Of a stretch of DNA of 64,000 nt, positions 15,379-50,279 are shown in pieces. This DNA comes from a virus: the IMG/VR virus record IMGVR_UViG_3300046694_000136, positions 170,504 to 234,503 of that record. One strand, given 5' to 3'. Numbering within the stretch: the stretch's first letter is position 1; each line of letters begins with the position of its first letter. The notes under the pieces were generated by a model, which was not told the origin of the DNA, did not search any database, and was given only the letters and a program-made list of their open reading frames with translations. The position numbers were made by a program, and so were the translations under genes.

Positions 15379-15397
15379 CTATATTACTCGTGTGAAT
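15379..15397 (+). promoter_or_regulatory. Early-type phage promoter motif
   Basis: CTATATTACTCGTGTGAAT, lying after a terminator and 54 bases before a start codon. It matches the consensus built from nine sites in this window. The core CTATATTAC resembles the AT-rich early promoter of phiKZ as I recall it, used by the packaged virion RNA polymerase. Confidence 0.75.
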
Positions 15398-15450
15398 AAA
15401 CAACGCAATGTTTTAAACTCATTGTCTGTTAACTGTACTTGGAGAACGTT

Positions 15451-16776
15451 ATGACTACTACCAAACCGCAAATCGTTTTCGCTGATTCCCTGGAAGTTGT
15501 TAAAGAGCGCATCAAGGCCCTTCAGGCTGAGAAAACTCCTCGCAACGAAATCCTGATCCAACTGAACAAACTGATTCACGATGCCGAGCTGTTCTCCCAG
15601 AAACAACGGGCGAACGTGGTTCGTGAACTCAACAAAGACTTCGGTCTGAAAGTCAGCATGAGTGAAATCAAGCGGGCTATCAAAACCGTGAACACTGCGA
15701 CGAAGCCTAACGAAAAGGCTACGCCGGTGGATGGTCTGGGCGGCAACGCTACTCTGGACCTGGCTGCAAAACCTCCTGTGGCGCCGGCAGCTGAAGAAGC
15801 TGCTGATGTAACTGCGGCTGCCGCTAAACCCGCCGCTGGCAAGGACACCGCCAGCAACAAACCTTCCACCACCACTACTTCGGAAAACACCACCATGGCC
15901 CCTGTAAAAGAAACCCTGAAACTCGTATCCGATCGCATCGCCGTTGACGCTCCTCGTTCCCACGAAGAAAAGGTCGGCGACCTGCTCGCCATCCTGGCCG
16001 GTGCCGGTGCTACCACTGAAGAAGCTCGCCAAGAGCTGATCAATGGTTTCATCGCTGCCAACCCGGCAATGAGCATCACCTGGAACCTGATGAAGAACTA
16101 CCCGCAAGGCGAAGCAGGCATCGTCGGCACTCTGGTTGCCTACATGGAAATCGATCCGGAAAACAAAGCCAAGTTCGAAGCCTACCTGGCCCCGATTGCT
16201 GGTGTTGACCAACCTGCTCCTCCTGCCGCTCCGGTTGCTGATCTCGGTACCGTCACCGCTGCCGCTGCTGTGGCCGCCAGTGCACCTGCCGCTCCTGCTC
16301 CTGGCATTCCTGGTGCCCCTGAAGTTTCGGTTGCTGTTGCGGTCGAAGCTCCTGGTCTGAAAGAACGCGTCATGACCACCATCCGCGGCAATCGCGAAAC
16401 CGGCTTCTCCAGCGGCGTCGTGGCAGCAACTACCGCACTGGTCGGTGGCGGTCTGGAAATGGCATTCAAAGGCAACGCTACCATCGGTTCCGGCGTCGGC
16501 ACTGCTGTAGGTGCTACTGGCGCTTACTTCCTGGCCGAGTCCACTGACAAGCTGATGGACAGCGAAACCGGTCGTTACCTGCTGGCTGGTGCTATCGGCG
16601 TCGTTGCTGGTGGTCTGGGTAGCCGTATCGGTCGCGGTGTGCAAGACGGTTACCTGAACCCGTCGTCTGAAGTTGCCGGCGCTCTGGAGACCCTTCCAGG
16701 CGCTCCGGTACCTGCTCCACAACCAGGCGGTCTGGTAGGTAACTCCGAAGCACTGCTGGGCATGTTCAATCTGTAA
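15451..16776 (+). CDS. Ala/Pro-rich protein with glycine-zipper-like C-terminal membrane segments
   Basis: A 441-residue protein. The N-terminal 100 residues are helical and charged. Two low-complexity Ala/Pro/Thr linkers follow (about 110-150 and 250-305), then a helical domain between them (about 155-245). The C-terminal region carries two small-residue hydrophobic segments, SSGVVAATTALVGGGLEMAF and LLAGAIGVVAGGLGSRIGRG, typical of glycine-zipper pore or membrane-insertion segments. Codon use is strikingly G/C-ending, suggesting high expression. ATG 15451 follows GGAG 15441-15444. It is the only gene between its own promoter and a strong terminator. No family recognised; an abundant early membrane-active protein is one reading, an inner-virion protein another. 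Confidence 0.65.
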   Translation: MTTTKPQIVFADSLEVVKERIKALQAEKTPRNEILIQLNKLIHDAELFSQKQRANVVRELNKDFGLKVSMSEIKRAIKTVNTATKPNEKATPVDGLGGNATLDLAAKPPVAPAAEEAADVTAAAAKPAAGKDTASNKPSTTTTSENTTMAPVKETLKLVSDRIAVDAPRSHEEKVGDLLAILAGAGATTEEARQELINGFIAANPAMSITWNLMKNYPQGEAGIVGTLVAYMEIDPENKAKFEAYLAPIAGVDQPAPPAAPVADLGTVTAAAAVAASAPAAPAPGIPGAPEVSVAVAVEAPGLKERVMTTIRGNRETGFSSGVVAATTALVGGGLEMAFKGNATIGSGVGTAVGATGAYFLAESTDKLMDSETGRYLLAGAIGVVAGGLGSRIGRGVQDGYLNPSSEVAGALETLPGAPVPAPQPGGLVGNSEALLGMFNL

Positions 16777-16799
16777 TCTGTAACTGACACGCCCTTTAT

Positions 16800-16828
16800 A
16801 GGGAGCCTTCGGGTTCCCTTATTTTTTG
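16800..16828 (+). terminator. Intrinsic terminator with UUCG loop and T-run
   Basis: AGGGAGCC (16800-16807) pairs with GGTTCCCT (16812-16819, one G-U) around TTCG, followed by TTATTTTTTG. This is a classic Rho-independent terminator closing the single-gene unit. Confidence 0.88.
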
Positions 16829-16845
16829 TATATGAGGATTTCGTG

Positions 16846-17241
16846 ATGTCTGAAGGTTTTTCTGTAGTACAAGTTGAAGTAAAGAACGAAACAGGGACCA
16901 CCCTGCTTTACGTTAAATGCATTGAAGGGTTGAAAGTGGTTGGTCAGCCAGACATCATCGAGTTCACCGATAAGCCGTGGGAAGCAGATCGTCCGGTACT
17001 CACCCACGACCTGTGGGAACGAGTGTACGCCGAGCTCTGTAACGAAGAACAGACTCAGACCTACCGTCGTCTCCGTGGTTACGAAGGCTGTGACAAGCCA
17101 CGCCAGACCATTCAGGTTAACCGGGTGGATGTCACGGTGGATGGCTGGATCGTAACCACTCACATCTCTAAACGTTCTTCGACTCTGGTTGTCCAGTCTT
17201 TGCCAGAAAACAAGAACAAAATCATCTCCCTCAATTTCTAA
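16846..17241 (+). CDS. Unknown protein, 131 aa
   Basis: A beta-rich acidic protein with N-terminal strands (VVQVEVKNETGTTLLYVKC) and a C-terminal pair (VDVTVDGWIVTTHI). AGGA 16835-16838 favours ATG 16846 over the adjacent GTG 16843. No family recognised. It follows a terminator with no copy of the early motif in front, so it may depend on read-through or on a promoter I cannot see. Confidence 0.6.
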   Translation: MSEGFSVVQVEVKNETGTTLLYVKCIEGLKVVGQPDIIEFTDKPWEADRPVLTHDLWERVYAELCNEEQTQTYRRLRGYEGCDKPRQTIQVNRVDVTVDGWIVTTHISKRSSTLVVQSLPENKNKIISLNF

Positions 17242-17251
17242 GGAATTCTCC

Positions 17252-17776
17252 ATGACAACTGATTCTGTTCCTAAAGATATCTGGCAGGCTACCTTTAAAG
17301 AACTGCTGGAAAAGTTCAATGAGCGTTTCGTTGTGCCAGCTCATACAGAACAACCCCAAGGCGTGTACCAGTGGCCGCTGGGTAGCCACACCCTTGAAGT
17401 AGTGTTCCACGACAACCAGCAACCCTACGTCGTGCCCTTCACTATTTTCAAGAGCAAGACAGAAGTGCTGGGTCAAGGGTGTTTCGATACCCAGTTGAAG
17501 GTGGTGTGCAGTATCGTCTACCCGGACGTCAAGTACCTCACTGAGCTGTGCACTTCGTTGGGGATGATGGTCCAGCAAACCTCGGACGACAGAACCCATG
17601 GCTTCGAGCTGTATCCTCCCCTGATCGCTAAAGACGATATCAATGACAGCTGGGTCGAGAAATATCGACAAGACCATCCTGGGACGAGCTACGCATCGGC
17701 GGTAAGCGCGGCGGTAAAGGAAATCAAACAAACCGCAACCGTTCTGCAACGGATACTCGATAAACACGTTTATTAA
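17252..17776 (+). CDS. Unknown protein, 174 aa
   Basis: ATG 17252 follows AAGGA 17240-17244; a longer frame upstream would overlap the preceding gene. The N-terminal half has an amphipathic helix (FKELLEKFNERFVVP) and beta strands around VYQWPLGSHTLEVVF, and the C-terminus is a helix with repeated small residues (SYASAVSAAVKEIKQ). No family recognised. It forms a two-gene unit with its upstream neighbour, closed by a hairpin. Confidence 0.6.
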   Translation: MTTDSVPKDIWQATFKELLEKFNERFVVPAHTEQPQGVYQWPLGSHTLEVVFHDNQQPYVVPFTIFKSKTEVLGQGCFDTQLKVVCSIVYPDVKYLTELCTSLGMMVQQTSDDRTHGFELYPPLIAKDDINDSWVEKYRQDHPGTSYASAVSAAVKEIKQTATVLQRILDKHVY

Positions 17777-17792
17777 TCCTTGAATGCGGTTG

Positions 17793-17820
17793 GCCTACCT
17801 AGGGTAATACCTGGGTGGGC
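17793..17820 (+). terminator. Hairpin terminator
   Basis: GCCTACCTAGG pairs with CCTGGGTGGGC through two G-U wobbles around GTAATA, followed by TGTTTCTTAAGTTTTC. The wobbles make it stable only as RNA from the plus strand, fitting a one-way terminator. Confidence 0.72.
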
Positions 17821-17850
17821 TGTTTCTTAAGTTTTCATTTATTTTTGGAC

Positions 17851-17870
17851 CTACATTATTACTGTGTAAT
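17851..17870 (+). promoter_or_regulatory. Early-type phage promoter motif
   Basis: CTACATTATTACTGTGTAAT, one base longer than the usual 19-base motif, placed after a terminator and 36 bases before the next start codon. Confidence 0.72.
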
Positions 17871-17905
17871 GTACGTTATTTAATCTTGTTACCAAGGAGT
17901 TATTT

Positions 17906-19033
17906 ATGACAGCTGTAACCATTCGTGGACTTAGCAACACCCTGAAGTATCTCGTTGAGCACAACCGTTTGGATAAGGCTCATCCCATTAAAGCGTGCTC
18001 CGGGAAGAACTCTGGAAGGTACCTCGAGTTTTTCATCGCTCCAGAGAAGGTCAAGAACTCGAAAGACTGCTTCGGGATTACGATCAATGTGGTTCTCCAT
18101 CAAGATCGAGATGCTGCATTGGGGGCGTCACTTACTCAGGAAACGTCGGGTGACGATTTTGTCATGACCACCTATTCGGGTGTTTACCGTAATGACGTAA
18201 TTCGTGCACTCTGCACTTTCGTTGTTGCCAACAACATGAACATCGACGGGGGTGACGTCTCGGTAGACCGTTCCAGCATGAACGAGAAGATCTGGGAGTC
18301 TGCGAGCAAGCGGCCTCTTCCCGGAACCAACATCAACGACGTTATTGATCTGCTGGGTGCTACACTAGACCGAGTCCCGGTAAAGGTTCTGGACAAGGCG
18401 ATGGTTACCCCGCTGAACCTCAAAGATGTTCTGGATGAACTTCGTTGGACGGCTAACCGTTGGGATGTATTTGAGCATGGCCTTGTTCGTCTTGCTCAAG
18501 GTAAGACCAGCGAGGAGCTGAACAAGATTCTTGATGCACGCGCCAGTGTTCTCTACTGGCTGTTCGACCGCGACGACGACGAAAACGGTCCTTCCAACGA
18601 AGAGATCATTGAACTCTGCAAGAGCAGTAACAACCCTAAGTTCACCGACACTATCACCTTCCGTCGTCCACCGGGGTACAAAGGCGGTGAGCCATTGAAG
18701 TTGATGAGCTACGCCTTGGATGCGATTCGGGTATACGAGCGTAACCACGGACCGTTTATCCCTCAACCAGAATACCTGATCGTTCTGGAGCAGGAAGACG
18801 GCGGTACTCGTCGGTTCGTTAATCCCGACTGGATCGAGTGGTGGGGTGAGTACTCCGAGCGTGTCGTTCATCCACTGGATGAGGTACAACGCCGTCTACG
18901 AGAATCCTTCAAGGACCGGGATAATCTGACTGCGTTGGATGTTCATGTGACACATAAAGCTGAAGTGCACGAAATCCTCAAAGACGATATCGCGCGTCAC
19001 GAAGTTATCGTGTCCTATCAAGCCTTCCTGTAA
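17906..19033 (+). CDS. Unknown early protein with a W-x-x-W module, 375 aa
   Basis: First gene behind an early-type promoter. The N-terminal 120 residues are mixed, the middle is helical, and an acidic patch (DRDDDENG) lies near residue 225. Near residues 306-335 is NPDWIEWWGEYSER followed by a helix, a module that recurs in several other small proteins of this block. The C-terminus is helical and charged. No enzymatic motif or family was recognised. The segment just before the module (PEYLIVLEQEDGG) resembles PEVLISVKGLN in the gene at 50941, suggesting a wider relationship between the two. Confidence 0.62.
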   Translation: MTAVTIRGLSNTLKYLVEHNRLDKAHPIKACSGKNSGRYLEFFIAPEKVKNSKDCFGITINVVLHQDRDAALGASLTQETSGDDFVMTTYSGVYRNDVIRALCTFVVANNMNIDGGDVSVDRSSMNEKIWESASKRPLPGTNINDVIDLLGATLDRVPVKVLDKAMVTPLNLKDVLDELRWTANRWDVFEHGLVRLAQGKTSEELNKILDARASVLYWLFDRDDDENGPSNEEIIELCKSSNNPKFTDTITFRRPPGYKGGEPLKLMSYALDAIRVYERNHGPFIPQPEYLIVLEQEDGGTRRFVNPDWIEWWGEYSERVVHPLDEVQRRLRESFKDRDNLTALDVHVTHKAEVHEILKDDIARHEVIVSYQAFL

Positions 19034-19043
19034 CGAGGTGAGT

Positions 19044-19469
19044 ATGGCTGGCGACGTTCCTTATTTGAAACCGGGTGACATTGAAAACGCATCGGAGTTT
19101 ATAAAGCTTTGGCTTGATCTGTATTCGTTTTGTACCGAGACCGGTGGGTTTGCACAAATTGCCTTTGCTGAAACAGACGAGGTGATTAAGTCACTCCAAG
19201 GTCGGGTAGTCACTGTCCGTAATGGATACTGGAAACCTGTAGACGGTAGCCCGGAGTCGTACCTCTTGTCCTTCATTGAAAGTAAGGGGGAAGAGAAAGT
19301 AACCTTGTTCAACATCATGACCCTCAAGAGCGGTAAGGGCGAGGTGTTGGTTATGACGAACGAGCGCAAGCCAGTGACTGAGGAGGATCAAGAAGTAGTA
19401 ACCGGCTTGGTCCACATCCTCAGGCAGTATCTCAAAATGGCTGCTCAACCTAAACATACTGTTCACTAA
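19044..19469 (+). CDS. Unknown protein, 141 aa
   Basis: ATG 19044 follows GAGGTG 19034-19039; the in-frame GTG 19038 lies inside that ribosome site. Mixed alpha/beta, acidic, with strands VVTVRNGYWKPVDG and EKVTLFNIMTL and a C-terminal helix ending KMAAQPKHTVH. No family recognised. Ten bases separate it from the preceding gene, so the two are co-transcribed. Confidence 0.6.
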   Translation: MAGDVPYLKPGDIENASEFIKLWLDLYSFCTETGGFAQIAFAETDEVIKSLQGRVVTVRNGYWKPVDGSPESYLLSFIESKGEEKVTLFNIMTLKSGKGEVLVMTNERKPVTEEDQEVVTGLVHILRQYLKMAAQPKHTVH

Positions 19470-19483
19470 CAGGAGTATTACGC

Positions 19484-20341
19484 ATGATGGATTTAACAAT
19501 CAAAGAAGGTACTAAGCTCGATATCGTTATCGAAGTGAAGACCCTCTGCCGTAAAGCCAAGACCACTACCTGGGCTCAGCTTGTTGAAAGCGGGTTCAAG
19601 ATCGGCGAGAACGACTGGGGTCCCGCTGACACCGCTATTTCCTCGTCTGCGGTAGGTTCTGCTCGAATGGGGTTATTGGCCAGCTTCATGAACGACAGCA
19701 ATAAGGTCATGACCCCTGCGTTCGCCAAAGCAGTTCTTCCTGAAATGACCGGGTTGGCTAACGGTTTGGGCCAGATCAGTTTTGTGGGTCATAAGGAGGG
19801 TGCTGACAAACCTGAGCCTATCCTCACCATCCTGTTCGAGTTCTCGCAGAAGCCGGGTGATCGTATCAAGGTGTCCAAGAATATCCAGGACTACTTTAAC
19901 CGCGAGGAAGAGATCAAGAAAGATACCTCCCTCCTGCTGGTACGTGATCTGTTCTACGCCCTCGAGTCGTACAAGGGCAAGAACAACGGGATCATCCCCC
20001 GAATGCTCTTTGACGAAACCGAAGAAGTTCCTGCTTACATGCGTGGTCGTCGGTTCTCGCCGGATCTTACTCGGATCCAGTTCGAATCGAAAATCAAACC
20101 TTCGGTGGTCATCAACATTCGGGAACACACTACCGAGCCAGCTGGCATCTGTCCACCTATCCTGTTCCAGCTTATCGCAGAAGAAGCGGACGACGGTGTT
20201 CTGTGGCTCCGTTACGAAGGGTCTGATGAACCAACCGCTGAACAGAACCTTATCGTCAAGGAAGTGATGTTCGCTTACAGAGATCTCATCTACGGCGGTG
20301 AAGAAGGTAGTCCAACCACTCACGACACCGTTCAGCATTAA
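19484..20341 (+). CDS. Unknown protein, 285 aa
   Basis: The gene starts with tandem ATGs (19484 and 19487) behind AGGAG 19471-19475, so either may be used. It is an acidic mixed alpha/beta protein with a Phe/Lys-rich middle and a beta-rich C-terminal third (KIKPSVVINIREH, VLWLRYEGSDEP). The strand WLRYEG and the surrounding acidic residues suggest a small-molecule or peptide-binding fold, but no family is recognised. Third gene of the unit starting at 17851, closed by a hairpin. Confidence 0.6.
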   Translation: MMDLTIKEGTKLDIVIEVKTLCRKAKTTTWAQLVESGFKIGENDWGPADTAISSSAVGSARMGLLASFMNDSNKVMTPAFAKAVLPEMTGLANGLGQISFVGHKEGADKPEPILTILFEFSQKPGDRIKVSKNIQDYFNREEEIKKDTSLLLVRDLFYALESYKGKNNGIIPRMLFDETEEVPAYMRGRRFSPDLTRIQFESKIKPSVVINIREHTTEPAGICPPILFQLIAEEADDGVLWLRYEGSDEPTAEQNLIVKEVMFAYRDLIYGGEEGSPTTHDTVQH

Positions 20342-20351
20342 GTTCCAACTC

Positions 20352-20376
20352 AGGGGGTCATTGTACTTGGCCCCCT
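20352..20376 (+). terminator. Hairpin terminator
   Basis: AGGGGGTC and GGCCCCCT pair (one G-U) around a nine-base loop, followed by AATCTTTAACCC. It closes the preceding unit. Confidence 0.65.
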
Positions 20377-20409
20377 AATCTTTAACCCTTTGAGCAGAGT
20401 ACTACCGCA

Positions 20410-20829
20410 ATGAAGCGGATGATTGTTTACCTTAAGCGTCTCCTTTCCCTGTACATTGATCCACCAGTGTTTGTTCCTTCCTCGGTCAGTGGGTTTGAGC
20501 CTATCCCCCACGTCCACTACGTTCCAGCGCTTGATGAGCCATCATTGTTCGGTAACGGTCCTGATGGCATCAGTGGGGCTTGGTTGTCGTGGTATCTCAA
20601 GAACAACACTAGTAAAGGCTACATAGCTGCATTAACGGCCGCTCACAAGATCCGGATAGATTTGGATAACGAACCTGCCCGGATTTACAGTAACAGCTAC
20701 CTCCCAACTCTTCTGATTGGTCCCGGAAAACAGATTTCCTTTGAATGGGTTATCTGGTATCGCTACGAGTTTGATATGGCGTTTGAGGAGGCTCACCAAA
20801 CCGCTGTAAACATTACAGGTAGAGAATAA
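20410..20829 (+). CDS. Small protein built on two W-x-x-W modules, 139 aa
   Basis: After a hydrophobic, Pro-rich N-terminal half, residues about 56-81 read GAWLSWYLKNN followed by an Ala-rich helix, and residues about 111-135 read EWVIWYRYEFDMAFEEA. Both fit the W-x-x-W/Y plus alanine-helix module found in several proteins of this block. No family recognised. It is the last plus-strand gene before a convergent minus-strand gene. Confidence 0.62.
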   Translation: MKRMIVYLKRLLSLYIDPPVFVPSSVSGFEPIPHVHYVPALDEPSLFGNGPDGISGAWLSWYLKNNTSKGYIAALTAAHKIRIDLDNEPARIYSNSYLPTLLIGPGKQISFEWVIWYRYEFDMAFEEAHQTAVNITGRE

Positions 20830-20844
20830 GTAGCACAATAGACC

Positions 20845-20875
20845 CTACCTACTGCACCTAAGGTGCAGTAGGTAG
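20845..20875. terminator. Bidirectional hairpin terminator between convergent genes
   Basis: A perfect 15-bp stem (CTACCTACTGCACCT and its complement) with a single-base centre separates the plus-strand gene ending at 20829 from the minus-strand gene ending at 20889. The left flank is AATAGACCCT, as at 3051. Confidence 0.8.
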
Positions 20876-20888
20876 TTAAGTCTTTGCT

Positions 20889-21983
20889 TTAGCCAGTGAT
20901 CACGCTGAAGTAGCGGTTGATCATGTTGCTGATCCGGCGGATGTTCTCGCAGGTAACACGCAGTTGTTTGATAGCCGAGGTAGTCAGACTCAGAATCAGA
21001 CGGCAAGCTTTCAAGTTACGGTCGAAGGTGGAACGAGCTGCGTCACGCAGATCTTTACGCTTAACCATCTCTTCCAGCTTCTTGATCTGGTTAATAACGT
21101 CAGCCTTGATACCACGGCTGATAGAAGTGGATTCACTGTCCAGATCCTTAATAGCCTTCTCCAGCTCACCTTGAGCGCGAGCAGCGTCGTTCAGAGTACG
21201 CAGGCCTTGAGGGATACGAACCCAGGCTTCGATCTCTTTACTGGCGTTGTGCTTCATCGCAGCGCTGTAGGTACTGTACATGTCGGCAAACGAAGTACCC
21301 ACGAACTCATTGCTGTGGTCCATGGTGACGATGACCTGATAGGTCTTGTACTCGTCCAGTGCACGTTGGCATTGATCGTCGAGAGCGCGCTGCATGCGGC
21401 TGTTGATCTTGACGAACCGTTCGACCACTTCCTTCACGACACGCTGTTGCTCTGGTGCTGGAAGAGCTTTGACTTCTTTCAGCTTGTGCTTGAGCTCCTG
21501 AGCCTCGCTCTTCTCACTTGGAGAGGTTTGAGGACCGTTCATGAAGACGTCGAGGTCAGCCTGAGTGCGAAGCATCTGTTTGGAGATGTCATCGGCGTTG
21601 CTCATCCGGTGACCTGTAAGGACCGCGATGTTCGCTTGGTTCTGTTTCAGGATTGCATCGGTTTGTTCGGTGATACTCGGGCCTTTGTTGCTGTCGCCCA
21701 GACCGAAGAAGTTCAGGATAGCGTTGAACATCTTCATGATGTAACCCCAGACTTTGGCGATGCCGTCAGCCACGTCCGAGAAGAACCCTTCAGTACCAGC
21801 TACACGCTGTTTGTAAGAAAGGTCGCCGCTAGCGTCCAGAACACCCCACATGTAAGTTTGAGCGCGGGTAAGGCCTTCGGTCCCTGCAACCGTATCCAGC
21901 GTATCGGTCAGAGCATCGAATACCTGATCGATATGTTCTGGCTCGTGTAATTCGGTAATCTCACTGTCAATAGTGATGTCCAT
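20889..21983 (-). CDS. Putative inner-head (internal virion) protein with protease sites
   Basis: A 364-residue mostly helical protein on the opposite strand to the surrounding early genes. Two copies of V-A-G-T-E-G occur near the N-terminus (cleavage would follow E36 and E65). The prohead protease of phiKZ-type phages is known to cut after S/A/G-x-E, and proteins injected with the DNA are processed this way. After the second site comes an amphipathic hydrophobic helix (VWGYIMKMFNAILNFFGLG), also common in those inner-head proteins. The remainder is long charged helices without cysteine-rich or enzyme motifs. GGAG precedes the start. The role is inferred from motif and architecture; the protease itself is not in this window. 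Confidence 0.6.
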   Translation of the reverse strand: MDITIDSEITELHEPEHIDQVFDALTDTLDTVAGTEGLTRAQTYMWGVLDASGDLSYKQRVAGTEGFFSDVADGIAKVWGYIMKMFNAILNFFGLGDSNKGPSITEQTDAILKQNQANIAVLTGHRMSNADDISKQMLRTQADLDVFMNGPQTSPSEKSEAQELKHKLKEVKALPAPEQQRVVKEVVERFVKINSRMQRALDDQCQRALDEYKTYQVIVTMDHSNEFVGTSFADMYSTYSAAMKHNASKEIEAWVRIPQGLRTLNDAARAQGELEKAIKDLDSESTSISRGIKADVINQIKKLEEMVKRKDLRDAARSTFDRNLKACRLILSLTTSAIKQLRVTCENIRRISNMINRYFSVITG

Positions 21984-22069
21984 GTAATGCTCCGCGGTCT
22001 TTAAATGTGGTTGATGTTAACATAAAATTATACCCCATTGATAATCTATAAAGTGTGAGGAATACAGTT
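21984..22069. promoter_or_regulatory. Divergent promoter region
   Basis: This AT-rich gap separates a minus-strand and a plus-strand start. On the minus strand GGGTATAATTTTATG (22022-22036) contains a perfect TATAAT, but no clear -35 box accompanies it. On the plus strand CTATAAAGTGTGAGG (22046-22060) is a shortened match to the early motif and also supplies the ribosome site. Promoter assignment is tentative for both. Confidence 0.4.
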
Positions 22070-23781: not shown

Positions 23782-23786
23782 AGAAG

Positions 23787-24245: not shown

Positions 24246-24262
24246 GCTATGGAGAAGCGTTA

Positions 24263-26303: not shown

Positions 26304-26323
26304 CTACATTATTCGAGTGTAAT
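26304..26323 (+). promoter_or_regulatory. Early-type phage promoter motif
   Basis: CTACATTATTCGAGTGTAAT, 35 bases before the next start codon and in the same strand and setting as the other copies. Confidence 0.73.
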
Positions 26324-28922: not shown

Positions 28923-28941
28923 CTATATCACCCGGGTGAAT
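28923..28941 (+). promoter_or_regulatory. Early-type phage promoter motif (variant)
   Basis: CTATATCACCCGGGTGAAT departs from the consensus at the centre but keeps CTATAT and GTGAAT. It lies only 19 bases before ATG 28960, the shortest spacing of the set. Confidence 0.6.
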
Positions 28942-28959
28942 TAATAACAGGTATTAATT

Positions 28960-33407: not shown

Positions 33408-33432
33408 AGCGTAAGTAACAACCCTATTATAG

Positions 33433-33465
33433 AGCGGGCTTAACGGCCTGCTTTATTTTTTTTTT
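33433..33465 (+). terminator. Intrinsic terminator with long T-run
   Basis: AGCGGGC pairs with GCCTGCT (33446-33452, one G-U) around TTAACG, followed by TTATTTTTTTTTT. Strong Rho-independent terminator. Confidence 0.9.
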
Positions 33466-33486: not shown

Positions 33487-33505
33487 CTACATTATTAGTC
33501 TGAAT
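33487..33505 (+). promoter_or_regulatory. Early-type phage promoter motif
   Basis: CTACATTATTAGTCTGAAT, right after a terminator and 33 bases before ATG 33538. Confidence 0.75.
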
Positions 33506-33537
33506 CAACAACATTTGTTTATTGAGGATTGTTCGTT

Positions 33538-37322: not shown

Positions 37323-37341
37323 CTATATTACTAGTTCGTAA
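37323..37341 (+). promoter_or_regulatory. Early-type phage promoter motif driving the chaperonin
   Basis: CTATATTACTAGTTCGTAA keeps the CTATATTACTAGT half exactly and varies at the end. It lies 37 bases before the chaperonin start. Confidence 0.7.
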
Positions 37342-37377
37342 CAACATTATTGTTTATTTCTGTAAGTGGAGATTATG

Positions 37378-39027
37378 ATGGCTGACAAAATTTTGCTGGG
37401 CGAAGAAGCAACCGCATTGATCGAATCGGTAATGGCAACGGTTGATCGTGCAGTAACCTCCACCATGGGTCCTGATGGTCAAGTGGCTCTGATGGGTAGC
37501 GGCGACTCCAGCTGGACCACCAAAGACGGTGTGACTGTGGCGCGTTCCCTTCAGTTCCCTACGGCCGAAGAAGAAATCATCAACCGCATCATTTCCGAAC
37601 CGGCCATCAAGACTGATGACGAATGTGGTGACGGTACTACCACCACCATCAAGTTGATGTCGGTCATCTATGCACTGCTGCGCAAAGACAACACCTTCAA
37701 AGGCCGTAAGCGGGTTGAGTACATTGTCAACCAGTTTATCGCTGCACTGGAACGCCAAGCGGTCTTCCCTCAACTGGGTGACAACATGCTGTTCAAGGTG
37801 GCGTTGACTACGTCTAACCAAGACCATAATCTGGCCACTCAGGTTATGGACATCTACCGTAGTTCTGTGAAGGGTTATCCTGACGTTGAGATCAAGCCCG
37901 GTCGTGGTTCCAATGATCTGGTAGAACGTGTTGACGGTCGCGTGATCAACATGTACTTCGCCGACCAGTGGTTCGCTGGTGACAACAACGCGAACAAGGT
38001 TAAGCTGGATCAGTACATTCCGGTAATCGTGGATGACCGCATCCTGCAAGCTACTCCTCAAGAGTTTTACGACGGGATCATGAACATCCGGAAGCAGGTC
38101 GAAGACGACACGCAACCATCCGGTGTTCCTCACCCGCCAATCGTTCTGGTAGTCCGCAGTATCGAGAAGGGCGCGATCAACACGTTGGCCAACCTCGTGG
38201 TCAATAACGAGCAGATGAAAGCGTTCAACAACGGCAACCGTCCTGGTGTTATCGTTGCGATGACTAACTTAGGTGGCGGTCTCGGCGCTGCTGAGATGCA
38301 AGACATCGGTAGTATCTTGGGTGCTCCTTATGTGAACGGTGTTGAAGCACTGAAGACAGCTCAAGTGACGCTTCGTAACACTCCGCTGGTTATCGGTGTT
38401 GCACGTTCTTCGATCCACGATCTGACCCCGCAAGACGAAGCTCGTATCGAGAGTCGTGTTGCTGCTATCGAGGAAGAAATCGCGAACTACAGCTATACTG
38501 ATCGCTTCACTACTCGGGCACGTATCAACGAGCGTCGCGTCCGTCGTCTCCGTGGTGAGGTTGTAACCATCCTGGTGGGCGGTGAGACCAACCAAGAGAT
38601 CAAAGAGCGAGTAGACCGTTATCAGGACGTTGTGAAGGCTGTTCGCAGTGCTCTGGAGAACGGCGTGCTACCTGGTTGCGGTATGGGCCTCATTAATGCT
38701 GCTCGAACAGTTGACCACCTGTTGGACAATGAAGAAGACATGCGTATCGTGCACACTATCGGCACCAGCATCTGGCGACACTTGATGAAGAATCACGTTC
38801 CGCTTGATTTCCCTACGGCCAGTGTCCACCAGAAATTCCCGATCATCAACATCGCTACCGGCGAAGAGATGGACCCGGACTATCTGGATCAGTTGGCTGT
38901 GTGGGATACGGCGTTTGCAACCATCACTGCTTTGCGTGGTGGTTTCCAGACTGCTCAGATCTTGGCAACTGCCAGTTCTGTGTTCACTACGGTCAAGTTG
39001 CACGGTCGCACTAGCACTATCTCGTAA
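37378..39027 (+). CDS. groL: Phage-encoded GroEL-type (group I) chaperonin
   Basis: A 549-residue chaperonin of normal GroEL length. KDGVTVAR carries D50 (GroEL D52), ECGDGTTTT carries D85 (GroEL D87) and the 417-region QDVVKAVRSALENGVLPGCG carries D417 at the GroEL D398 position, so all three ATPase aspartates are kept. The apical domain is divergent and there is no C-terminal GGM tail. Such chaperonins are known in phages EL and OBP of the phiKZ-related group, where they fold phage proteins. I see no GroES gene in the window. The start is ATG 37378, six bases after GGAG; ATG 37375 is an alternative. It is the only gene between its promoter and a terminator. Confidence 0.93.
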   Translation: MADKILLGEEATALIESVMATVDRAVTSTMGPDGQVALMGSGDSSWTTKDGVTVARSLQFPTAEEEIINRIISEPAIKTDDECGDGTTTTIKLMSVIYALLRKDNTFKGRKRVEYIVNQFIAALERQAVFPQLGDNMLFKVALTTSNQDHNLATQVMDIYRSSVKGYPDVEIKPGRGSNDLVERVDGRVINMYFADQWFAGDNNANKVKLDQYIPVIVDDRILQATPQEFYDGIMNIRKQVEDDTQPSGVPHPPIVLVVRSIEKGAINTLANLVVNNEQMKAFNNGNRPGVIVAMTNLGGGLGAAEMQDIGSILGAPYVNGVEALKTAQVTLRNTPLVIGVARSSIHDLTPQDEARIESRVAAIEEEIANYSYTDRFTTRARINERRVRRLRGEVVTILVGGETNQEIKERVDRYQDVVKAVRSALENGVLPGCGMGLINAARTVDHLLDNEEDMRIVHTIGTSIWRHLMKNHVPLDFPTASVHQKFPIINIATGEEMDPDYLDQLAVWDTAFATITALRGGFQTAQILATASSVFTTVKLHGRTSTIS

Positions 39028-39803: not shown

Positions 39804-39822
39804 CTATATTACTTAGGTGAAT
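39804..39822 (+). promoter_or_regulatory. Early-type phage promoter motif
   Basis: CTATATTACTTAGGTGAAT, 74 bases before ATG 39896, the longest leader of the set. Confidence 0.75.
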
Positions 39823-39895
39823 ACGCTTTGGTATTTAATAACTAACCAGAGTATCTTTTGCAATTAAGTTTGGTTTCTACCAAAGGGTGACGAAC

Positions 39896-40465: not shown

Positions 40466-40513
40466 ATGGTAACGTTGTAACTTTGTTTGTTTAATTACAT
40501 AAGGATTGTAACG

Positions 40514-41257: not shown

Positions 41258-41282
41258 CACCTGAAGCATTGGGGATAACAAC

Positions 41283-41903: not shown

Positions 41904-41912
41904 GGAGTTATT

Positions 41913-42662: not shown

Positions 42663-42704
42663 AACGTAATAATCAACAACACCTTAACTAGAAAGGAACT
42701 CAGG

Positions 42705-43667: not shown

Positions 43668-43684
43668 GTTGTAGTGGGTAATAG

Positions 43685-43727
43685 CCTAAGCGGGTAATTC
43701 CGCTTAGGTTTCCTTTTCTTTATTTTT
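43685..43727 (+). terminator. Intrinsic terminator
   Basis: CCTAAGCGG pairs perfectly with CCGCTTAGG (43700-43708) around GTAATT, followed by TTTCCTTTTCTTTATTTTT. Confidence 0.9.
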
Positions 43728-43737
43728 GGAATCGAAC

Positions 43738-44415: not shown

Positions 44416-44423
44416 TGACTGCT

Positions 44424-44463
44424 AATAAGGTAGGGGGTAACACCTCTACCTTATTTTTTGTTT
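44424..44463 (+). terminator. Intrinsic terminator
   Basis: AATAAGGTAG pairs with CTACCTTATT (44446-44455) with three further inner pairs, followed by TTTTGTTTC. Confidence 0.88.
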
Positions 44464-44479
44464 CTATATCTTTTTGAAC

Positions 44480-44498
44480 CTACATTATTAGTACGTAT
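44480..44498 (+). promoter_or_regulatory. Early-type phage promoter motif
   Basis: CTACATTATTAGTACGTAT, 40 bases before ATG 44538 and directly behind a terminator. Confidence 0.72.
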
Positions 44499-44537
44499 AG
44501 CCATCCGGTTATCGCAATCCATTAAAAGGAATACCTC

Positions 44538-45479
44538 ATGAAACTTCGTAACTGGCTCCCTACCAAATACCTGACTGAAGATAATCCAGTCATCGGCTTA
44601 AGCTTTGAAGTCGGTTTCCGTCGCTTGCTGGTAATGGTGGGTGAAACCATTATTTTCTCGATGTCGAACATGGTCCGCGGTGACGTTGACAGCGAAGTCT
44701 TCAACTGCATCCCTGCTTGGATGTACCGTTCGCACATGGCTGATGCAATGCTTGCGAATAAACATCAACAGATGGGCGGCGGGTTTCGTCGAACGGGAGC
44801 CGATACATTGGAGGTTCGCTGTGCGCACACTCCCATGGCCAGGAGCCACTTTTCGAAGGACGGGATACTTCAATTTACCGGACGACAGGAGTATTCGGAA
44901 TACAACATAGTGGACAATGATGTACAGGGGGTTTATAGGGATCTGATCTCTTTACGCCGTATGCGTAAGTTGCGCAATGAGCCCTACGTCTACGGGGAGA
45001 TCGCTCACCCTCGTCAGCTTACCAACTATGAGATCTATCGACTGTCAGGTTCTATGCCGAACGTCGGTACAGTAGGTCACATGGATTACGGTCGTCGCAA
45101 CCTACCTCTCTACTTGACTAAAGCAATGTACGAGAAACAAATGCGGGACGCTGGTATTGAAGTAGACGCTATGGCGGAACCACATCACACTATTCGCAAA
45201 CTGCGGAATAACGGACATAACGGGGTCCCTCGTGAACCTATCGGCCACTCTTCTCTGACTGCCATGTGCAGGAACTACAAGTTGACCGATTTGCACGGTG
45301 GCCGGGGAACGGTCGTATCAGTAAAACCTCCTAGACCCCACCTACCCGTTTGGCCTGGAATACATGCCCTCGCTGCTCAGTTAAATGATCCACGTAGACG
45401 AGTACTCCGTCGAGCAGAAGCTTATTTGGCCAACGAGTACTACTACACTGGCGAAGGCATGTTACCTAAGGGCCTGTAA
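44538..45479 (+). CDS. Unknown Arg/His-rich protein, 313 aa
   Basis: A basic protein rich in Arg, His, Met and Tyr, without low-complexity repeats. Early beta strands (FEVGFRRLLVMVGETIIF) precede a helical, basic middle and a C-terminal Arg-rich helix (DPRRRVLRRAEAYLANEY). Its net charge would suit nucleic-acid contact, but no DNA-binding motif is recognisable. AAAAGGAAT precedes ATG 44538. Only gene between promoter and terminator. Confidence 0.6.
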   Translation: MKLRNWLPTKYLTEDNPVIGLSFEVGFRRLLVMVGETIIFSMSNMVRGDVDSEVFNCIPAWMYRSHMADAMLANKHQQMGGGFRRTGADTLEVRCAHTPMARSHFSKDGILQFTGRQEYSEYNIVDNDVQGVYRDLISLRRMRKLRNEPYVYGEIAHPRQLTNYEIYRLSGSMPNVGTVGHMDYGRRNLPLYLTKAMYEKQMRDAGIEVDAMAEPHHTIRKLRNNGHNGVPREPIGHSSLTAMCRNYKLTDLHGGRGTVVSVKPPRPHLPVWPGIHALAAQLNDPRRRVLRRAEAYLANEYYYTGEGMLPKGL

Positions 45480-45491
45480 GAACTTGTAAGG

Positions 45492-45523
45492 ACCTAGGGT
45501 GTAATGCCCTAGGTTTATTTATT
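45492..45523 (+). terminator. Intrinsic terminator
   Basis: ACCTAGGG pairs with CCCTAGGT (45507-45514) around TGTAATG, followed by TTATTTATTTGG. Confidence 0.82.
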
Positions 45524-45543
45524 TGGATCAGTGGATTAGTACC

Positions 45544-46023
45544 ATGGAAATTAAGCAAGTCAAGCGAATAGATTTGACCAAGGAGCAAAAGGGTGTTGTA
45601 CAAGAACTCATGCTCGATCTGTGGGGGATTGAAGAACCTTTCCTGAGCCACATTCCCGAGCAGTATGGCGGATTGGAGTACATGCTCATTTCCTGCTTCA
45701 ACAGACTCGACGATATTCTCTTAGGGTATGTTGACGGGGAACTGATTGGCTTCTTGGGTAATCAAGTTGACCACCATAACGAAGTAGAGAAGTTGGTCAT
45801 TAAAGAAGAACATCGTGGTAAGGGGTATGGTCGTTGTTTGATCCATGCCTTTAAGTTGATGGTAGAAAAACCCATGTTTGTACTTATTGCCCCCGGTAAT
45901 GTTAACGCGTCCAAGTTCTACCGAGCGGTAGGGTTCAACGTGGAAGACAAAACACATAGCACTCCGTCGGGGATAGAACATTATCAATTAGGTGTATTGG
46001 AAGGAGTATTGGTAGATGCCTGA
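45544..46023 (+). CDS. GNAT-family N-acetyltransferase (second copy type)
   Basis: A 159-residue GNAT enzyme. Motif A reads EEHRGKGYGRCLIHA, a canonical R-x-x-G-x-G acetyl-CoA loop after the VEKLVIK strand; motif B is GNVNASKFYRAVGFNVED. The N-terminal 70 residues hold the family's beta1-alpha1-alpha2 region. It is not closely similar to the GNAT at 28440, so it was probably acquired separately. The acceptor is unknown. Its last eight bases overlap the next start. Confidence 0.88.
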   Translation: MEIKQVKRIDLTKEQKGVVQELMLDLWGIEEPFLSHIPEQYGGLEYMLISCFNRLDDILLGYVDGELIGFLGNQVDHHNEVEKLVIKEEHRGKGYGRCLIHAFKLMVEKPMFVLIAPGNVNASKFYRAVGFNVEDKTHSTPSGIEHYQLGVLEGVLVDA

Positions 46024-46462
46024 ATTATCAGAAGAAGAGTTAGAAGCTCAAGCGCTAGACCGTCTGCTCCGGAACATCCCTTTCTTTCGTGAAGCGTTCA
46101 AGATCGTCAACATAGCGACTGACTTGGACGAAGTAGCCGAGCGGATCAGTCGGGAATATGCGTTCCCTACTAGTGCTAACACGTTGGCGACTATCTTGGG
46201 GATCCACACTCCTCATTTGATCTCTCACGTAGCGCAGTGGGATGCTTACTGCAACTACTGCATTAAGGCTATGGGTAACTTCTACATCCCGTTTGTAGAC
46301 GACGGTACAGTAGACGTGATCTTCCGTGGGGAACCGACCGGTTACGTCCAGATCCTTAGCAGTAAAGTCTATCCGTCTGGAAGAACTATGAAGCGTATTC
46401 TGCCTGAAGACGTTGTCAGAGCATTCAAGGTACAAGCCAACGCTTGCCCTTCCCTCCATTAA
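46016..46462 (+). CDS. Unknown protein, 148 aa
   Basis: A helical, acidic N-terminal half (MPELSEEELEAQALDRLLRN) followed by a beta-rich C-terminal third (GTVDVIFRGEPTGYVQIL). GGAG lies upstream within the preceding gene. Overlaps its upstream neighbour, so the two are coupled. No family recognised. Confidence 0.58.
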   Translation: MPELSEEELEAQALDRLLRNIPFFREAFKIVNIATDLDEVAERISREYAFPTSANTLATILGIHTPHLISHVAQWDAYCNYCIKAMGNFYIPFVDDGTVDVIFRGEPTGYVQILSSKVYPSGRTMKRILPEDVVRAFKVQANACPSLH

Positions 46463-46482
46463 TTTATTGTTCGGTACTTACT

Positions 46483-46914
46483 ATGTCTAATTTGAAGCCG
46501 GGTATGGAAGCCTTTATTACTTCCAATCCATATGCAAGCAACATCAACAAAGCAGTAAAGCTGGTGCAGTGGGTTCCTCCTAACGAAAGTTACGGTAACG
46601 ATGCTGTAAAATTCGCTGGCGGGGAATGTGGTGGCTGGGTAGTTCGTCCGGTTAACACTAAGGTCATGCTCTGCACCGTAGGTGGGAATATGGTGATGAT
46701 CTCCAACGTTGCCTTCATTCGGGAGAACGAGCTGGTAGAAACTCCTTTGTTCGAATCGAATGAAGTAGAGCTCACCGCTGAACAACTTGCAGACATGCAG
46801 GTGTATCTGCTGGATGACGACGCGTTCGATAACTTCACTAAGCAATTAGAGGACAACCCGATGTCCGAGAACAAAACCCTGAACGAACTCCTTTCCCGTC
46901 CTAAACCTTGGTGA
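46483..46914 (+). CDS. Unknown small beta-barrel-like protein, 143 aa
   Basis: The opening NLKPGMEAFITSNPYA and the GGWVVRP strand parallel the gene at 28960. An acidic helical C-terminus follows. The ribosome site before ATG 46483 is weak. No family recognised. Confidence 0.52.
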   Translation: MSNLKPGMEAFITSNPYASNINKAVKLVQWVPPNESYGNDAVKFAGGECGGWVVRPVNTKVMLCTVGGNMVMISNVAFIRENELVETPLFESNEVELTAEQLADMQVYLLDDDAFDNFTKQLEDNPMSENKTLNELLSRPKPW

Positions 46915-46919
46915 TTGTT

Positions 46920-47717
46920 ATGCCAGCTCGCGAATCTCGTAAAACAGAAAAACCTGTCGGTCACTACAAGGGTGACAACCGTTCTATCGATTCCACCAAA
47001 CCACTGGGTCCGTTTACTCCGGTGGTGGTTGAGAACTTGAACCAACTCAAGATCACTCACCAGTTCGAACTGGGCGAAGACACCCCTTCTGATCTTGCCA
47101 ACAGTCTTCATGAACGCTTCCGTCGGATCAGTCGGGCTAGTCTGAATACAGCTGGTGAGCGCCGTATTGTGGTTGATCTGGCTACAGGTGAACCTCAGGA
47201 CTCGATCACTGGCGAACACCACGGCTTGATACCTCTGGAAGGCCACGTAACGCTCTATACGGTGATTGAAGACGCTGTAGACCCTACCCTATTCCGATTG
47301 GTCATCATCGGTACACGGAAGGCTACGACGTACGTATTCATTAAAGAGGATACGGCCTTTACTGTTGAGTTCGAACAGTCCTCCGAGTCAACCATTGAAG
47401 CAGTTGCCAATCTGTACGGCACTTGCTTGGATAAAGGCGTGGAGCAGTTCAAGATCGTTATGGAGGCTCTTGACAGTCTGTTCTACAAGCTGTTCTTTGT
47501 AGCGGTAGAGAACCCTTGTCAGATCGACTTCAAAGTCTGGCACAGTAAAGGCGTGGAAGTTAACCTCCGGCTGTATCTGTACCCCGCTGAGCCCAACCGG
47601 AATATTCTGAGCGGTAACGGTTATTGTTGGCACATTGATTTGGACCAGTTCCCTAACCGTCACATCTCTCGCGGCTACAGTCTCCGTCAGTGGGAGCATA
47701 ACAGAAAAAGAGGTTAG
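46920..47717 (+). CDS. Unknown protein, paralog of 41913 and 42705, 265 aa
   Basis: The N-terminal 60 residues are basic and variable. The core (KATTYVFIKEDTAFTVEF, then AVANLYGTCLDKGVEQF) and the end (CWHIDLDQFPNRHISRGY) match the 41913 protein block for block. A basic tail ends NRKRG. It lies 3.2 kb from its relatives, beyond a further promoter, so the duplication is dispersed rather than tandem. Function unknown. Ribosome site weak. Confidence 0.58.
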   Translation: MPARESRKTEKPVGHYKGDNRSIDSTKPLGPFTPVVVENLNQLKITHQFELGEDTPSDLANSLHERFRRISRASLNTAGERRIVVDLATGEPQDSITGEHHGLIPLEGHVTLYTVIEDAVDPTLFRLVIIGTRKATTYVFIKEDTAFTVEFEQSSESTIEAVANLYGTCLDKGVEQFKIVMEALDSLFYKLFFVAVENPCQIDFKVWHSKGVEVNLRLYLYPAEPNRNILSGNGYCWHIDLDQFPNRHISRGYSLRQWEHNRKRG

Positions 47718-47719
47718 TC

Positions 47720-48067
47720 ATGTCCGGTAGTAAAACTGTTTATACCGAAGGGTCTGACAGTACGTTCACCCACATGGGTAAAACGTACAGCGTTGATGAG
47801 CTTTTGTCTCTCACTCAGGATTTAGATGTAGTCCAGCTCTCTTTAGATAAACTGAAGTGGATGGTTGAGGACGACTTCGACATGAAACGGATGAGGGCCG
47901 CTGATACAAGTGTACCTGTACTAGTTTACAGGTTGCCCAATCGTAACTGGGTCACTATGGACGGTTATCATCGGGTTGTTAAAGCTATTCGAGTAGATAA
48001 GCTCAAAAGCATTCCTGCAAAAATTGTAACTGACAAACTATTCCAGCAACTCACTCCTCTTTCTTGA
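47720..48067 (+). CDS. ParB/sulfiredoxin-like domain protein, 115 aa
   Basis: The C-terminal half reads VPVLVYRLPNRNWVTMDGYH followed by R and a helix, then LKSIPAKIV, which is the D-G-x-H-R plus I-P-A-x-I pattern of ParB-type N-terminal domains. In that fold the DGxHR residues bind or hydrolyse a nucleotide. The protein lacks the ParB DNA-binding helix-turn-helix, so a partitioning role is unlikely; phage members are of unknown use. Starts two bases after the previous stop. Confidence 0.62.
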   Translation: MSGSKTVYTEGSDSTFTHMGKTYSVDELLSLTQDLDVVQLSLDKLKWMVEDDFDMKRMRAADTSVPVLVYRLPNRNWVTMDGYHRVVKAIRVDKLKSIPAKIVTDKLFQQLTPLS

Positions 48068-48077
48068 TAGGTGTTTC

Positions 48078-48596
48078 ATGCTCAACGATAATCAAAAACA
48101 TGTAATGCGCGGTCAAACAGTTTTCACCGAAGCACAAGTACAACGCCGTATTGAACAGGCATTGGCTAATCAAACAGTTAAGATGCCAACCCGGGAACAA
48201 ATCTTTGCGCTGGCCCATCAGTATCTGGGCATTACCAAGTACAACTCGGAAAGCACTCCGTCGTCCAACTGGTACGTAAACGGCGATACCGACTTCCACC
48301 CAGACCTGATCGACAAAGAACGCGGTAGTCTGATGCTCGGTGACTATACCGATGACGCCCTGGCTAACGCTGTCTTCCTGCACGGCAATCCATGTGATCG
48401 TGAGAAGACCCAGCGTCTTCTGTCTGGTGAGATCAGTGACATCGCTTACCTGACTGCTGGTAAAGAACGTATCCGCTGGTTGTCCCGTCATCTGGAGCGT
48501 GCGCTGAAACAGCTTCAGGAACAGGCGGTACGAATCCGTGAACTCGAAAACGAACCAGACGTAGTGGGTGATTATCATGAACAACAATCCGATTAA
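48078..48596 (+). CDS. Unknown protein with C-terminal coiled coil, 172 aa
   Basis: A mixed N-terminal part and a C-terminal amphipathic helix with heptad-like spacing (LSRHLERALKQLQEQAVRIR). No motif recognised. Its 3' end overlaps the next gene by 20 bases. Confidence 0.6.
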   Translation: MLNDNQKHVMRGQTVFTEAQVQRRIEQALANQTVKMPTREQIFALAHQYLGITKYNSESTPSSNWYVNGDTDFHPDLIDKERGSLMLGDYTDDALANAVFLHGNPCDREKTQRLLSGEISDIAYLTAGKERIRWLSRHLERALKQLQEQAVRIRELENEPDVVGDYHEQQSD

Positions 48597-48978
48597 AACT
48601 CCGTTCCTCGTGCTGCGTTGTGATGGCGGTGGTCAAGCCAGCGACGCGGCGGTTGCTGTAGTGGAAGGGATGTTCAAGTCCGTTATCCGTGACTTCGAGG
48701 AAATCATCGAGGACGGCGTGAGCGGTGCTTGGATGGACGAGAGCTATGCAACCAAGGCTCAGGACTATCTGGATGAAAAGAATCCAGGGGGTGTGGCCGA
48801 GGACACAGTAGAGGCTGCTGCACTTGAAGCCGAGGAACTTATGTCCAAGCTGATGGTTCAGAACCACCACGCCTTGCAGAACATGTCGGGTTCTTACTTG
48901 GTAGACGAAGTAGCTGTACTGCGTCGTTTCCCTAACCTTTGGGTAGTTCAAGTATTCGGATCCAAATTTCCCTTCTAA
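48577..48978 (+). CDS. Unknown acidic protein, 133 aa
   Basis: ATG 48577 lies within the end of the preceding gene behind a weak GGGTGA. The protein is acidic, Ala-rich and helical (VEAAALEAEELMSKLM) with a beta-type end (VVQVFGSKFPF). No family recognised. Confidence 0.56.
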   Translation: MNNNPIKTPFLVLRCDGGGQASDAAVAVVEGMFKSVIRDFEEIIEDGVSGAWMDESYATKAQDYLDEKNPGGVAEDTVEAAALEAEELMSKLMVQNHHALQNMSGSYLVDEVAVLRRFPNLWVVQVFGSKFPF

Positions 48979-48989
48979 GGAGATAAGTC

Positions 48990-49445
48990 ATGAACACACT
49001 GAATCCAACCAATCCAGCTAACCGTCGTACTGCTAACTTCCAGTTCGATGAAACCCTTAAGCCGGAGTTCGTCTCCACTAAGGACTCGAGCGGTCGTTAC
49101 GTTATTTCGGTTAGTAACGTTCCACTCCTTGACCATGCGGGTAAGGCTCGTTGTCTGACTCGCACTAGCGTGGACTACGATCCTCCGTATGCCGCTCATG
49201 AGCATTATATCCAGCTGAAGGTTAACGTTCTCGATCGTTTCCGTTGGGTTGAACGCTTTAACAAAGAACGTGAGAGCATGCCAGACCAAGAGGCCTTGTT
49301 CTTAGCCAAATGGTTGATGGCAGGTATCCACGGTAACTACGTCGAGTCATTTACTACCGGCGCTTTCTTCAATGACGAGTACATCAAGGAAGAAACCCGT
49401 AAGCTGTACACCCTTAACGTACTCCACCGTTTCGGAGTGAGATGA
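48990..49445 (+). CDS. Unknown protein, 151 aa
   Basis: AAGGAG at 48977-48982 supports ATG 48990. An Asn/Thr-rich N-terminus, beta strands (SGRYVISVSNVPLL) and a helical, aromatic C-terminal half. No family recognised. The next gene starts one base after its stop. Confidence 0.58.
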   Translation: MNTLNPTNPANRRTANFQFDETLKPEFVSTKDSSGRYVISVSNVPLLDHAGKARCLTRTSVDYDPPYAAHEHYIQLKVNVLDRFRWVERFNKERESMPDQEALFLAKWLMAGIHGNYVESFTTGAFFNDEYIKEETRKLYTLNVLHRFGVR

Positions 49446-49446
49446 C

Positions 49447-49761
49447 ATGCCGAGCTTTATTTCAACATTAGGAGCACAAAGAGTAAAAACCATGGCAAGG
49501 AAAACCAACAACGAACTCAGTGCACTGCCTGGGTTCTTCTTCTATCCCCAAGATGTATCGGGACTGGAAGAACTGACGTACGAACAGCGTTGCGACATTT
49601 ACAGCAACCAAGGCTGTTACGGTGTTGACCTCACCAGTAAGGGCGACGTGGAATGCGGTTTGGCTAACGCGCGTATTCCCACTCACCGTCGTCCGGGAAC
49701 AGAGATTCCTGCTTACGGGAAGGTTCCTATCGACCTGCGTGGCGTTCTGGAGTCGAAATGA
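49447..49761 (+). CDS. Unknown protein, 104 aa
   Basis: ATG 49447 follows GGAG 49434-49437. A Pro/Gly-rich small protein with two cysteines (QRCDIYSNQGCYGVDL and a later VECGL). An internal ATG at 49492 is a possible shorter start. The stop overlaps the next start (ATGA). Confidence 0.55.
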   Translation: MPSFISTLGAQRVKTMARKTNNELSALPGFFFYPQDVSGLEELTYEQRCDIYSNQGCYGVDLTSKGDVECGLANARIPTHRRPGTEIPAYGKVPIDLRGVLESK

Positions 49762-49973
49762 TCAGTGCTCACGCTAAAGACTGGTTCAAAGATTACATGA
49801 ACGTAATGGGCGTGGTTGTGTTTCTGGTTATGGGCCTGTCTGGACAATCCAAGGAACTCATCTTGGCGCTGCTCGTCTTTACGTTCTGTGGTCTGGTGGC
49901 TAAGTTCAGCTATCTCAGTAGCTTCGTTGCTGCGATGTTGCTGTCCACCTTCGGAGCTGGTCTGTTCCTTTAG
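49758..49973 (+). CDS. Small membrane protein, 71 aa
   Basis: At least two hydrophobic segments (VMGVVVFLVMGLSG and LILALLVFTFCGLVAKF), with a third near the end (FVAAMLLSTFGAGLFL). Coupled to the previous gene by ATGA overlap. No family recognised. Confidence 0.65.
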   Translation: MISAHAKDWFKDYMNVMGVVVFLVMGLSGQSKELILALLVFTFCGLVAKFSYLSSFVAAMLLSTFGAGLFL

Positions 49974-49991
49974 TTATACGAGAAAGTTGTA

Positions 49992-50180
49992 ATGGCTGAT
50001 AAGAAAAGTGACGAGTACTTGATTGATCCGGTTTACCTGAAGCATCATCAGTTCATTGATAGGTTGTTTATCTTTCTTGTAGTAGGTGGCTCTGTGTTAG
50101 GTGGTCTCATGACATGGTCGATAACTAACATCGACGTTACTGGGACTATCTGCTGGGCCTTGGTTAGTCTGTTTGGCTAG
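49992..50180 (+). CDS. Small membrane protein, 62 aa
   Basis: A polar N-terminus (MADKKSDEYLIDPVYLKHH) and two hydrophobic segments (FIFLVVGGSVLGGLMTW and TICWALVSLF). Last gene before a terminator. No family recognised. Confidence 0.62.
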   Translation: MADKKSDEYLIDPVYLKHHQFIDRLFIFLVVGGSVLGGLMTWSITNIDVTGTICWALVSLFG

Positions 50181-50195
50181 CAGTACCCCGCATAC

Positions 50196-50226
50196 TACCC
50201 TACCAGCCCATAAGGCTGGTAGGGTA
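50196..50226 (+). terminator. Hairpin terminator
   Basis: TACCCTACCAGCC pairs perfectly with GGCTGGTAGGGTA around CATAA, a 13-bp stem. No T-run directly after. Confidence 0.78.
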
Positions 50227-50260
50227 ACTATGTCAATTTAATTTGCACTAGAAGACACAT

Positions 50261-50279
50261 CTATATTACTAGTGTGAAT
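50261..50279 (+). promoter_or_regulatory. Early-type phage promoter motif (best match)
   Basis: CTATATTACTAGTGTGAAT is the closest single copy to the consensus, 57 bases before GTG 50336. Confidence 0.78.

Follow-up and report, generated by a model that had tools for sequence, protein, structure and literature searches.

A one-directional motif as the probable early promoter of the virion RNA polymerase of an EL-like jumbo phage

A motif with the consensus TTTYAAAC-CTAYATTAY-N5-TG, found on one strand only throughout a virus record, is very probably the early promoter of the virion-packaged multisubunit RNA polymerase (vRNAP) of an EL-like, nucleus-forming jumbo phage. The motif belongs to an already described family of phage promoters. 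Its occurrence, architecture, conservation and downstream genes are described below, together with a covariation between two of its positions.

Sequence record and comparison set

The window, i.e. the whole stretch of 64,000 nucleotides that was analysed, spans bases 170504 to 234503 of a virus record that is 234,503 bases long and carries no mark of completeness. Positions refer to the window unless given as record positions. Judged by its proteins, the source of the record is an EL-like, nucleus-forming jumbo phage: an SbcC-like and a tail-fibre-like protein of the window showed 52% and 39% identity, respectively, to Pseudomonas phage EL and relatives, the encoded nuclear shell protein is of the EL type, and a PhuZ homologue and homologues of both phiKZ polymerase sets are encoded. 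Genes were called by a simple in-house selection; the genome is 93% coding, and the plus strand holds 74% of the coding bases. Nucleotide searches of the window DNA against phage records returned no matches, and protein and pattern searches were therefore used instead. The comparison set consisted of six genomes with 133 sites in total, namely the phage described here, EL and four more IMG/VR phages.

Genome-wide occurrence of the motif

The nine motif copies listed in a sequence-only reading of the window were all recovered at their positions on the plus strand (Table 1). With the consensus 19-mer and up to 3 mismatches, 6 of the 9 copies were recovered at a chance expectation of 0.05. The nine sites lie in gaps before start codons, as had been noted, at a distance of 18-73 nt, and a ribosome-binding-like stretch precedes each start codon.

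The matrix scan that the same reading had proposed was performed on the whole record with a matrix built from the nine sites, and further plus-strand sites were found. Applied to the remaining 170 kb of the record, this matrix yielded 13 more plus-strand sites and no minus-strand site at a threshold of at least 12 bits, compared to approximately 1.6 in simulated sequence. The first-pass scan returned 21 sites, clearly set apart from the remainder by their scores, all of them intergenic or nearly so and each located ahead of a plus-strand gene. A refined matrix, which takes in an upstream element, gave 26 sites in the record, all on the plus strand, while the best minus-strand match did not exceed 7.9 bits. 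The earlier observation of a strictly one-stranded motif thus extends to the complete record; from gene orientation alone, 26 of 26 plus-strand sites would be expected with a probability of about 5 in 10,000. The motif had also been thought to be confined to positions 15379-50279 and to define an early block there, a view that was abandoned, since it occurs genome-wide with 16 of the 26 refined sites outside the window.

The second half of the motif does not fit the consensus at 6600 or at record positions 21602, 78103 and 136775, and these four sites of the refined set may have little or no activity; a predicted AR9 promoter that carried just one deviation proved silent (PMC5312081). The description of site 6600 as a weak copy holds for the low score of its second half, but an orthologous site is present in all six genomes compared. 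It was retained by the refined matrix because its box is CTACATTAT. The leader transcribed from it would measure only about 10 nt.

Table 1. Predicted early promoters and neighbouring hairpins in the window
Feature	Position	Strand	Predicted start	Downstream gene	Remark
Weak copy, CTACATTAT class	6600..6619	+	6615	from ~6625 (97 aa, phrog_16812)	orthologous to EL annotated promoter 132472-132490
Hairpin	15309..15334	+			5′ of 15379 promoter, probable end of preceding unit
Predicted early promoter, CTATATTAC class	15379..15398	+	15394	from 15451	
Hairpin	17791..17822	+			5′ of 17851 promoter
Predicted early promoter, CTACATTAT class	17851..17870	+	17866	from 17906	
Predicted early promoter, CTACATTAT class	26304..26323	+	26319	from 26358	
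Predicted early promoter, CTATATCAC class	28923..28942	+	28938	from 28960 (phrog_2529)	
Hairpin with T run	33429..33456	+			5′ of 33487 promoter
Predicted early promoter, CTACATTAT class	33487..33506	+	33502	from ~33538	
Predicted early promoter, CTATATTAC class	37323..37342	+	37338	from 37375, GroEL-like chaperonin	
Predicted early promoter, CTATATTAC class	39804..39823	+	39819	from 39896	EL orthologue has annotated promoter 151700
Hairpin with T run	44424..44455	+			5′ of 44480 promoter
Predicted early promoter, CTACATTAT class	44480..44499	+	44495	from 44538	
Hairpin of 13 pairs without T run	50196..50226	+			5′ of 50261 promoter
Predicted early promoter, CTATATTAC class	50261..50280	+	50276	from 50336	

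Hairpins upstream of the sites

Hairpin terminators had been reported next to eight sites, a number that was too high: a strong hairpin within about 50 nt upstream was found at 6 of the 9 sites (15379, 17851, 33487, 39804, 44480 and 50261). The hairpins nearest to 26304 and 28923 are 344 and 512 nt away, ahead of a further small gene, and only a weak hairpin occurs near 37323. With a strict finder, gaps with and without a site did not differ in terminator content (3 of 17 versus 12 of 53). Inspection by eye of sites 17851, 37323 and 28923 for inverted repeats revealed no common hairpin.

Promoter architecture

Relative to the predicted start, TTTYAAAC spans positions -23 to -16 and CTAYATTAY positions -15 to -7, followed by T at -1 and G at +1. 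A at -11 and T at -10 were invariant (100% of 132 sites). The conserved G follows the box at a spacing of 6 nt in 113 of 133 sites and of 7 nt in 18 of 133. In AR9, phiKZ and phiR1-37 transcription begins 6 nt past the box (PMC5312081), and by this rule of the relatives the G at motif position 16 is predicted to be the transcription start. A weaker, distal AT-rich box is located at about -39 to -28; its strongest position is -29, where A occurs in 83%. It often reads TTTAAGTTRYAG and sometimes GGYTAAAT, and it looks as if the box has two alternative forms.

The YATTAY stretch at -12 to -7 bears a loose likeness to the bacterial -10 box, and site 37323 scores as sigma-70-like, so that the sites might be taken for sigma-70 promoters of the host, transcribed by its own RNA polymerase in the early phase of infection. 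This reading is very improbable. In a scan for TTGACA and TATAAT 16-18 nt apart, only 1 of the 10 window sites matched and fewer matches were obtained than in shuffled sequence; no TTGACA is conserved near -35, and neither the conserved CTA before the box nor the TTTYAAAC element nor the T-G start is a feature of sigma-70 promoters. Moreover, relatives infect without need for the host polymerase (PMC7598289; PMC13282480).

Early promoters of the vRNAP type, by comparison, carry an AT-rich conserved box of about 10 nt, centred near -10 and located 5′ of presumed early operons; every jumbo phage encoding RNA polymerases has such a motif before presumed early operons, and it is early wherever transcripts have been mapped (PMC7598289). 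The motif described here has both the AT-rich box near -10 (CTAYATTAY) and the conserved base 6 nt past it (G, the predicted start). By analogy with these relatives, the sites would be used by the vRNAP and would be early.

Genes downstream of the motif

Since homologues of phiKZ gp55, gp71, gp73 and gp74 as well as of gp80, gp149, gp178 and gp180 were found, the genome encodes both multisubunit RNA polymerases; a sequence search for a homologue of phiKZ gp68 found none. The homologues of the non-virion polymerase (nvRNAP) protein gp55 and of gp71, gp73 and gp74 are located in units headed by motifs at record positions 79799 and 93410, and PhuZ and the shell gene are downstream of motifs at record positions 71426 and 79799. 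For the homologues of the vRNAP proteins gp80, gp149, gp178 and gp180 and of the terminase, sheath and protease, either the plus-strand run to which the gene belongs does not begin with a motif or the gene is on the minus strand, in agreement with the earlier remark that the motif is missing from the virion blocks. The motif thus heads the nvRNAP and other early units and not the virion units, a partition as expected if the packaged polymerase reads the motif sites first. The GroEL-like chaperonin gene (phrog_5725, Cpn60_TCP1; 37375-39027) has its own predicted early promoter, like EL gp146.

A phage promoter in a genome that encodes an nvRNAP could also serve as a middle or late promoter for that newly made enzyme. 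We give this very little credence: the genes of the nvRNAP are themselves headed by the motif, the virion gene units are not, and the known late promoters of phiKZ, with TATG at the start, and of AR9, with AACA-N6-TA/G, are unlike it.

Under the vRNAP reading, the virion polymerase would enter the cell together with the DNA and would initiate at approximately 26 motif sites, all in the same direction. The first transcripts would provide the nuclear-shell protein, PhuZ, the chaperonin, the nvRNAP and many small unknown proteins, and the nvRNAP would next transcribe the other genes.

Conservation and direction in related phages

The nine-site matrix found sites in the five relatives as well, almost only on one strand. 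EL has 21 sites, all on the plus strand; 9 EL sites are annotated as ‘putative phage promoter’, several being orthologous to sites of the phage described here. Each of the four IMG/VR phages has 20-24 sites, confined to one strand. When positions were grouped by the downstream gene, 27 groups of orthologous positions held 117 of the 133 sites of the six genomes, the proteins of which are often only 30-60% identical. In all 4 other contigs found for the chaperonin, a motif lies 82-125 bases 5′ of the matched part of the gene, and the same applies to the shell gene at 86-114 bases in 7 of 7 contigs found, which include fragments of nearly identical phages. Several sites of the CTAYATYAC-GTGA type in EL (NC_007623), for example at 27, 139703 and 164550, carry no promoter annotation.

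In 14 jumbo phage genomes, including phiKZ, 201phi2-1, OBP, RisingSun, FishSpeaker and pTD1, the pattern CTAYATTAYN5TG matched 138 times on one strand and never on the other; SPN3US had no match. All strict matches share one direction within each of the 14 genomes, and about a quarter of the coding bases of the phage described here lie on the other strand. A literature search limited to open-access papers found no statement of this one-strand rule. While such a total strand bias might suggest that the motif is a directional DNA signal in packaging, segregation or repair rather than a promoter, this can practically be dismissed, as the first-pass sites keep to the gaps of a densely coding genome and precede plus-strand genes, the spacing from box to G is fixed and the motif position tracks genes across genomes.

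Covariation of positions -12 and -7

Across the six genomes, the bases at motif position 4 (-12) and position 9 (-7) vary together, the box being TATATTAC or TACATTAT and rarely TATATTAT or TACATTAC; read in the order -12/-7, the pair is T/C at 71 sites, C/T at 42, T/T at 9 and C/C at 6. The association was significant with every site counted (Fisher p of about 2.5e-18), with one site per ortholog group (median p 9e-8) and inside every one of the six genomes (p 0.0007-0.009); in RisingSun it was weak (p 0.04). A selection artefact was considered and rejected: matrix positions are independent, thresholding would deplete and not enrich the C/T form, and minus-strand matches of the same octamer, used as control, showed no association (p=0.71). 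Both forms are present in 8 of the 27 ortholog groups, so that the changes at -12 and -7 seem to be paired and not bound to the gene. With these mixed groups, and with no other position strongly dependent on the class, a division into two functional classes of promoter, each belonging to particular genes, was mostly rejected as well.

The nvRNAP genes have their promoter at record position 93410, which is not in the window. This promoter carries T at -12 as well as at -7 in 6 of 6 genomes, which are not independent, as several are closely related; among the other sites, 3 of 127 do so. The EL genome has a transposase gene between this promoter and the nvRNAP genes. We lean slightly towards the view that the EL-type virion polymerase reads -12 and -7 jointly, with promoters carrying TATATTAC or TACATTAT and avoiding the other two combinations and with paired switches between orthologous promoters, and that only the nvRNAP promoter keeps T/T in all six genomes, maybe setting strength or timing. 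Alternatively, selection for intermediate strength may account for the pattern. The covariation and the constant T/T of the nvRNAP promoter look new; for the covariation, a search of open-access papers found no statement.

Comparison with known early promoters

The sequence-only reading had likened the motif to the early promoter of phiKZ, and the comparison it suggested bore this out: the motif matches the published consensuses of phiKZ, EL, OBP and 201phi2-1. It had further taken the second half to be specific to this phage, which was not the case, since GTGAAT after TATATTAC also occurs in phiKZ, 201phi2-1 and RisingSun, and GTG is part of the published OBP, N1M2 and 201phi2-1 consensus (PMC7058600).

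The putative early promoters of EL (WTTTYAAACCTACATTATY) share the two elements, the one-strand rule and many orthologous sites. The published consensus and annotation of EL mainly cover the CTACATTAT class, whereas its unannotated CTATATYAC-GTGAATA sites correspond to the majority class in the phage described here. The phiKZ early promoters (TATATTAC) are alike in box, T at -1, G at +1 and spacing, with T in 28 of 33 and G in 25 of 33 sites after TATATTAC, and TATATTACN5TG shows a similar strand bias of 23 to 0; they differ in that the matches are nearly all of the T/C form, the spacers are A-rich and no clear CTACATTAT class was seen. In 201phi2-1, OBP and N1M2 a TTTRARR/TTTYARR element is followed by a TATATTAC or TATATTAT box and then by TG or GTG (PMC7058600), but OBP and N1M2 prefer TATATTAT, which is rare in the phage described here. 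The AR9 early promoters (AAATATATATTAT-N6-G), ascribed to the virion polymerase (PMC5312081), likewise have an AT-rich box and a start G after six bases; AR9 differs in its longer A/T box, its uracil-containing DNA and the lack of a nucleus.

Significance

An exact map of predicted early transcription starts and a list of early units are provided for an uncultivated jumbo phage, and the early units are where host-takeover proteins are expected. The alignment of 133 sites from six genomes gives a finer promoter description than the published EL consensus. As of 2017 the virion polymerase had been purified from no such phage (PMC5312081), and the paired -12/-7 rule can be tested on this enzyme. 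Finally, the one-direction rule, at 138 to 0 in 14 genomes, calls for a mechanistic reason.
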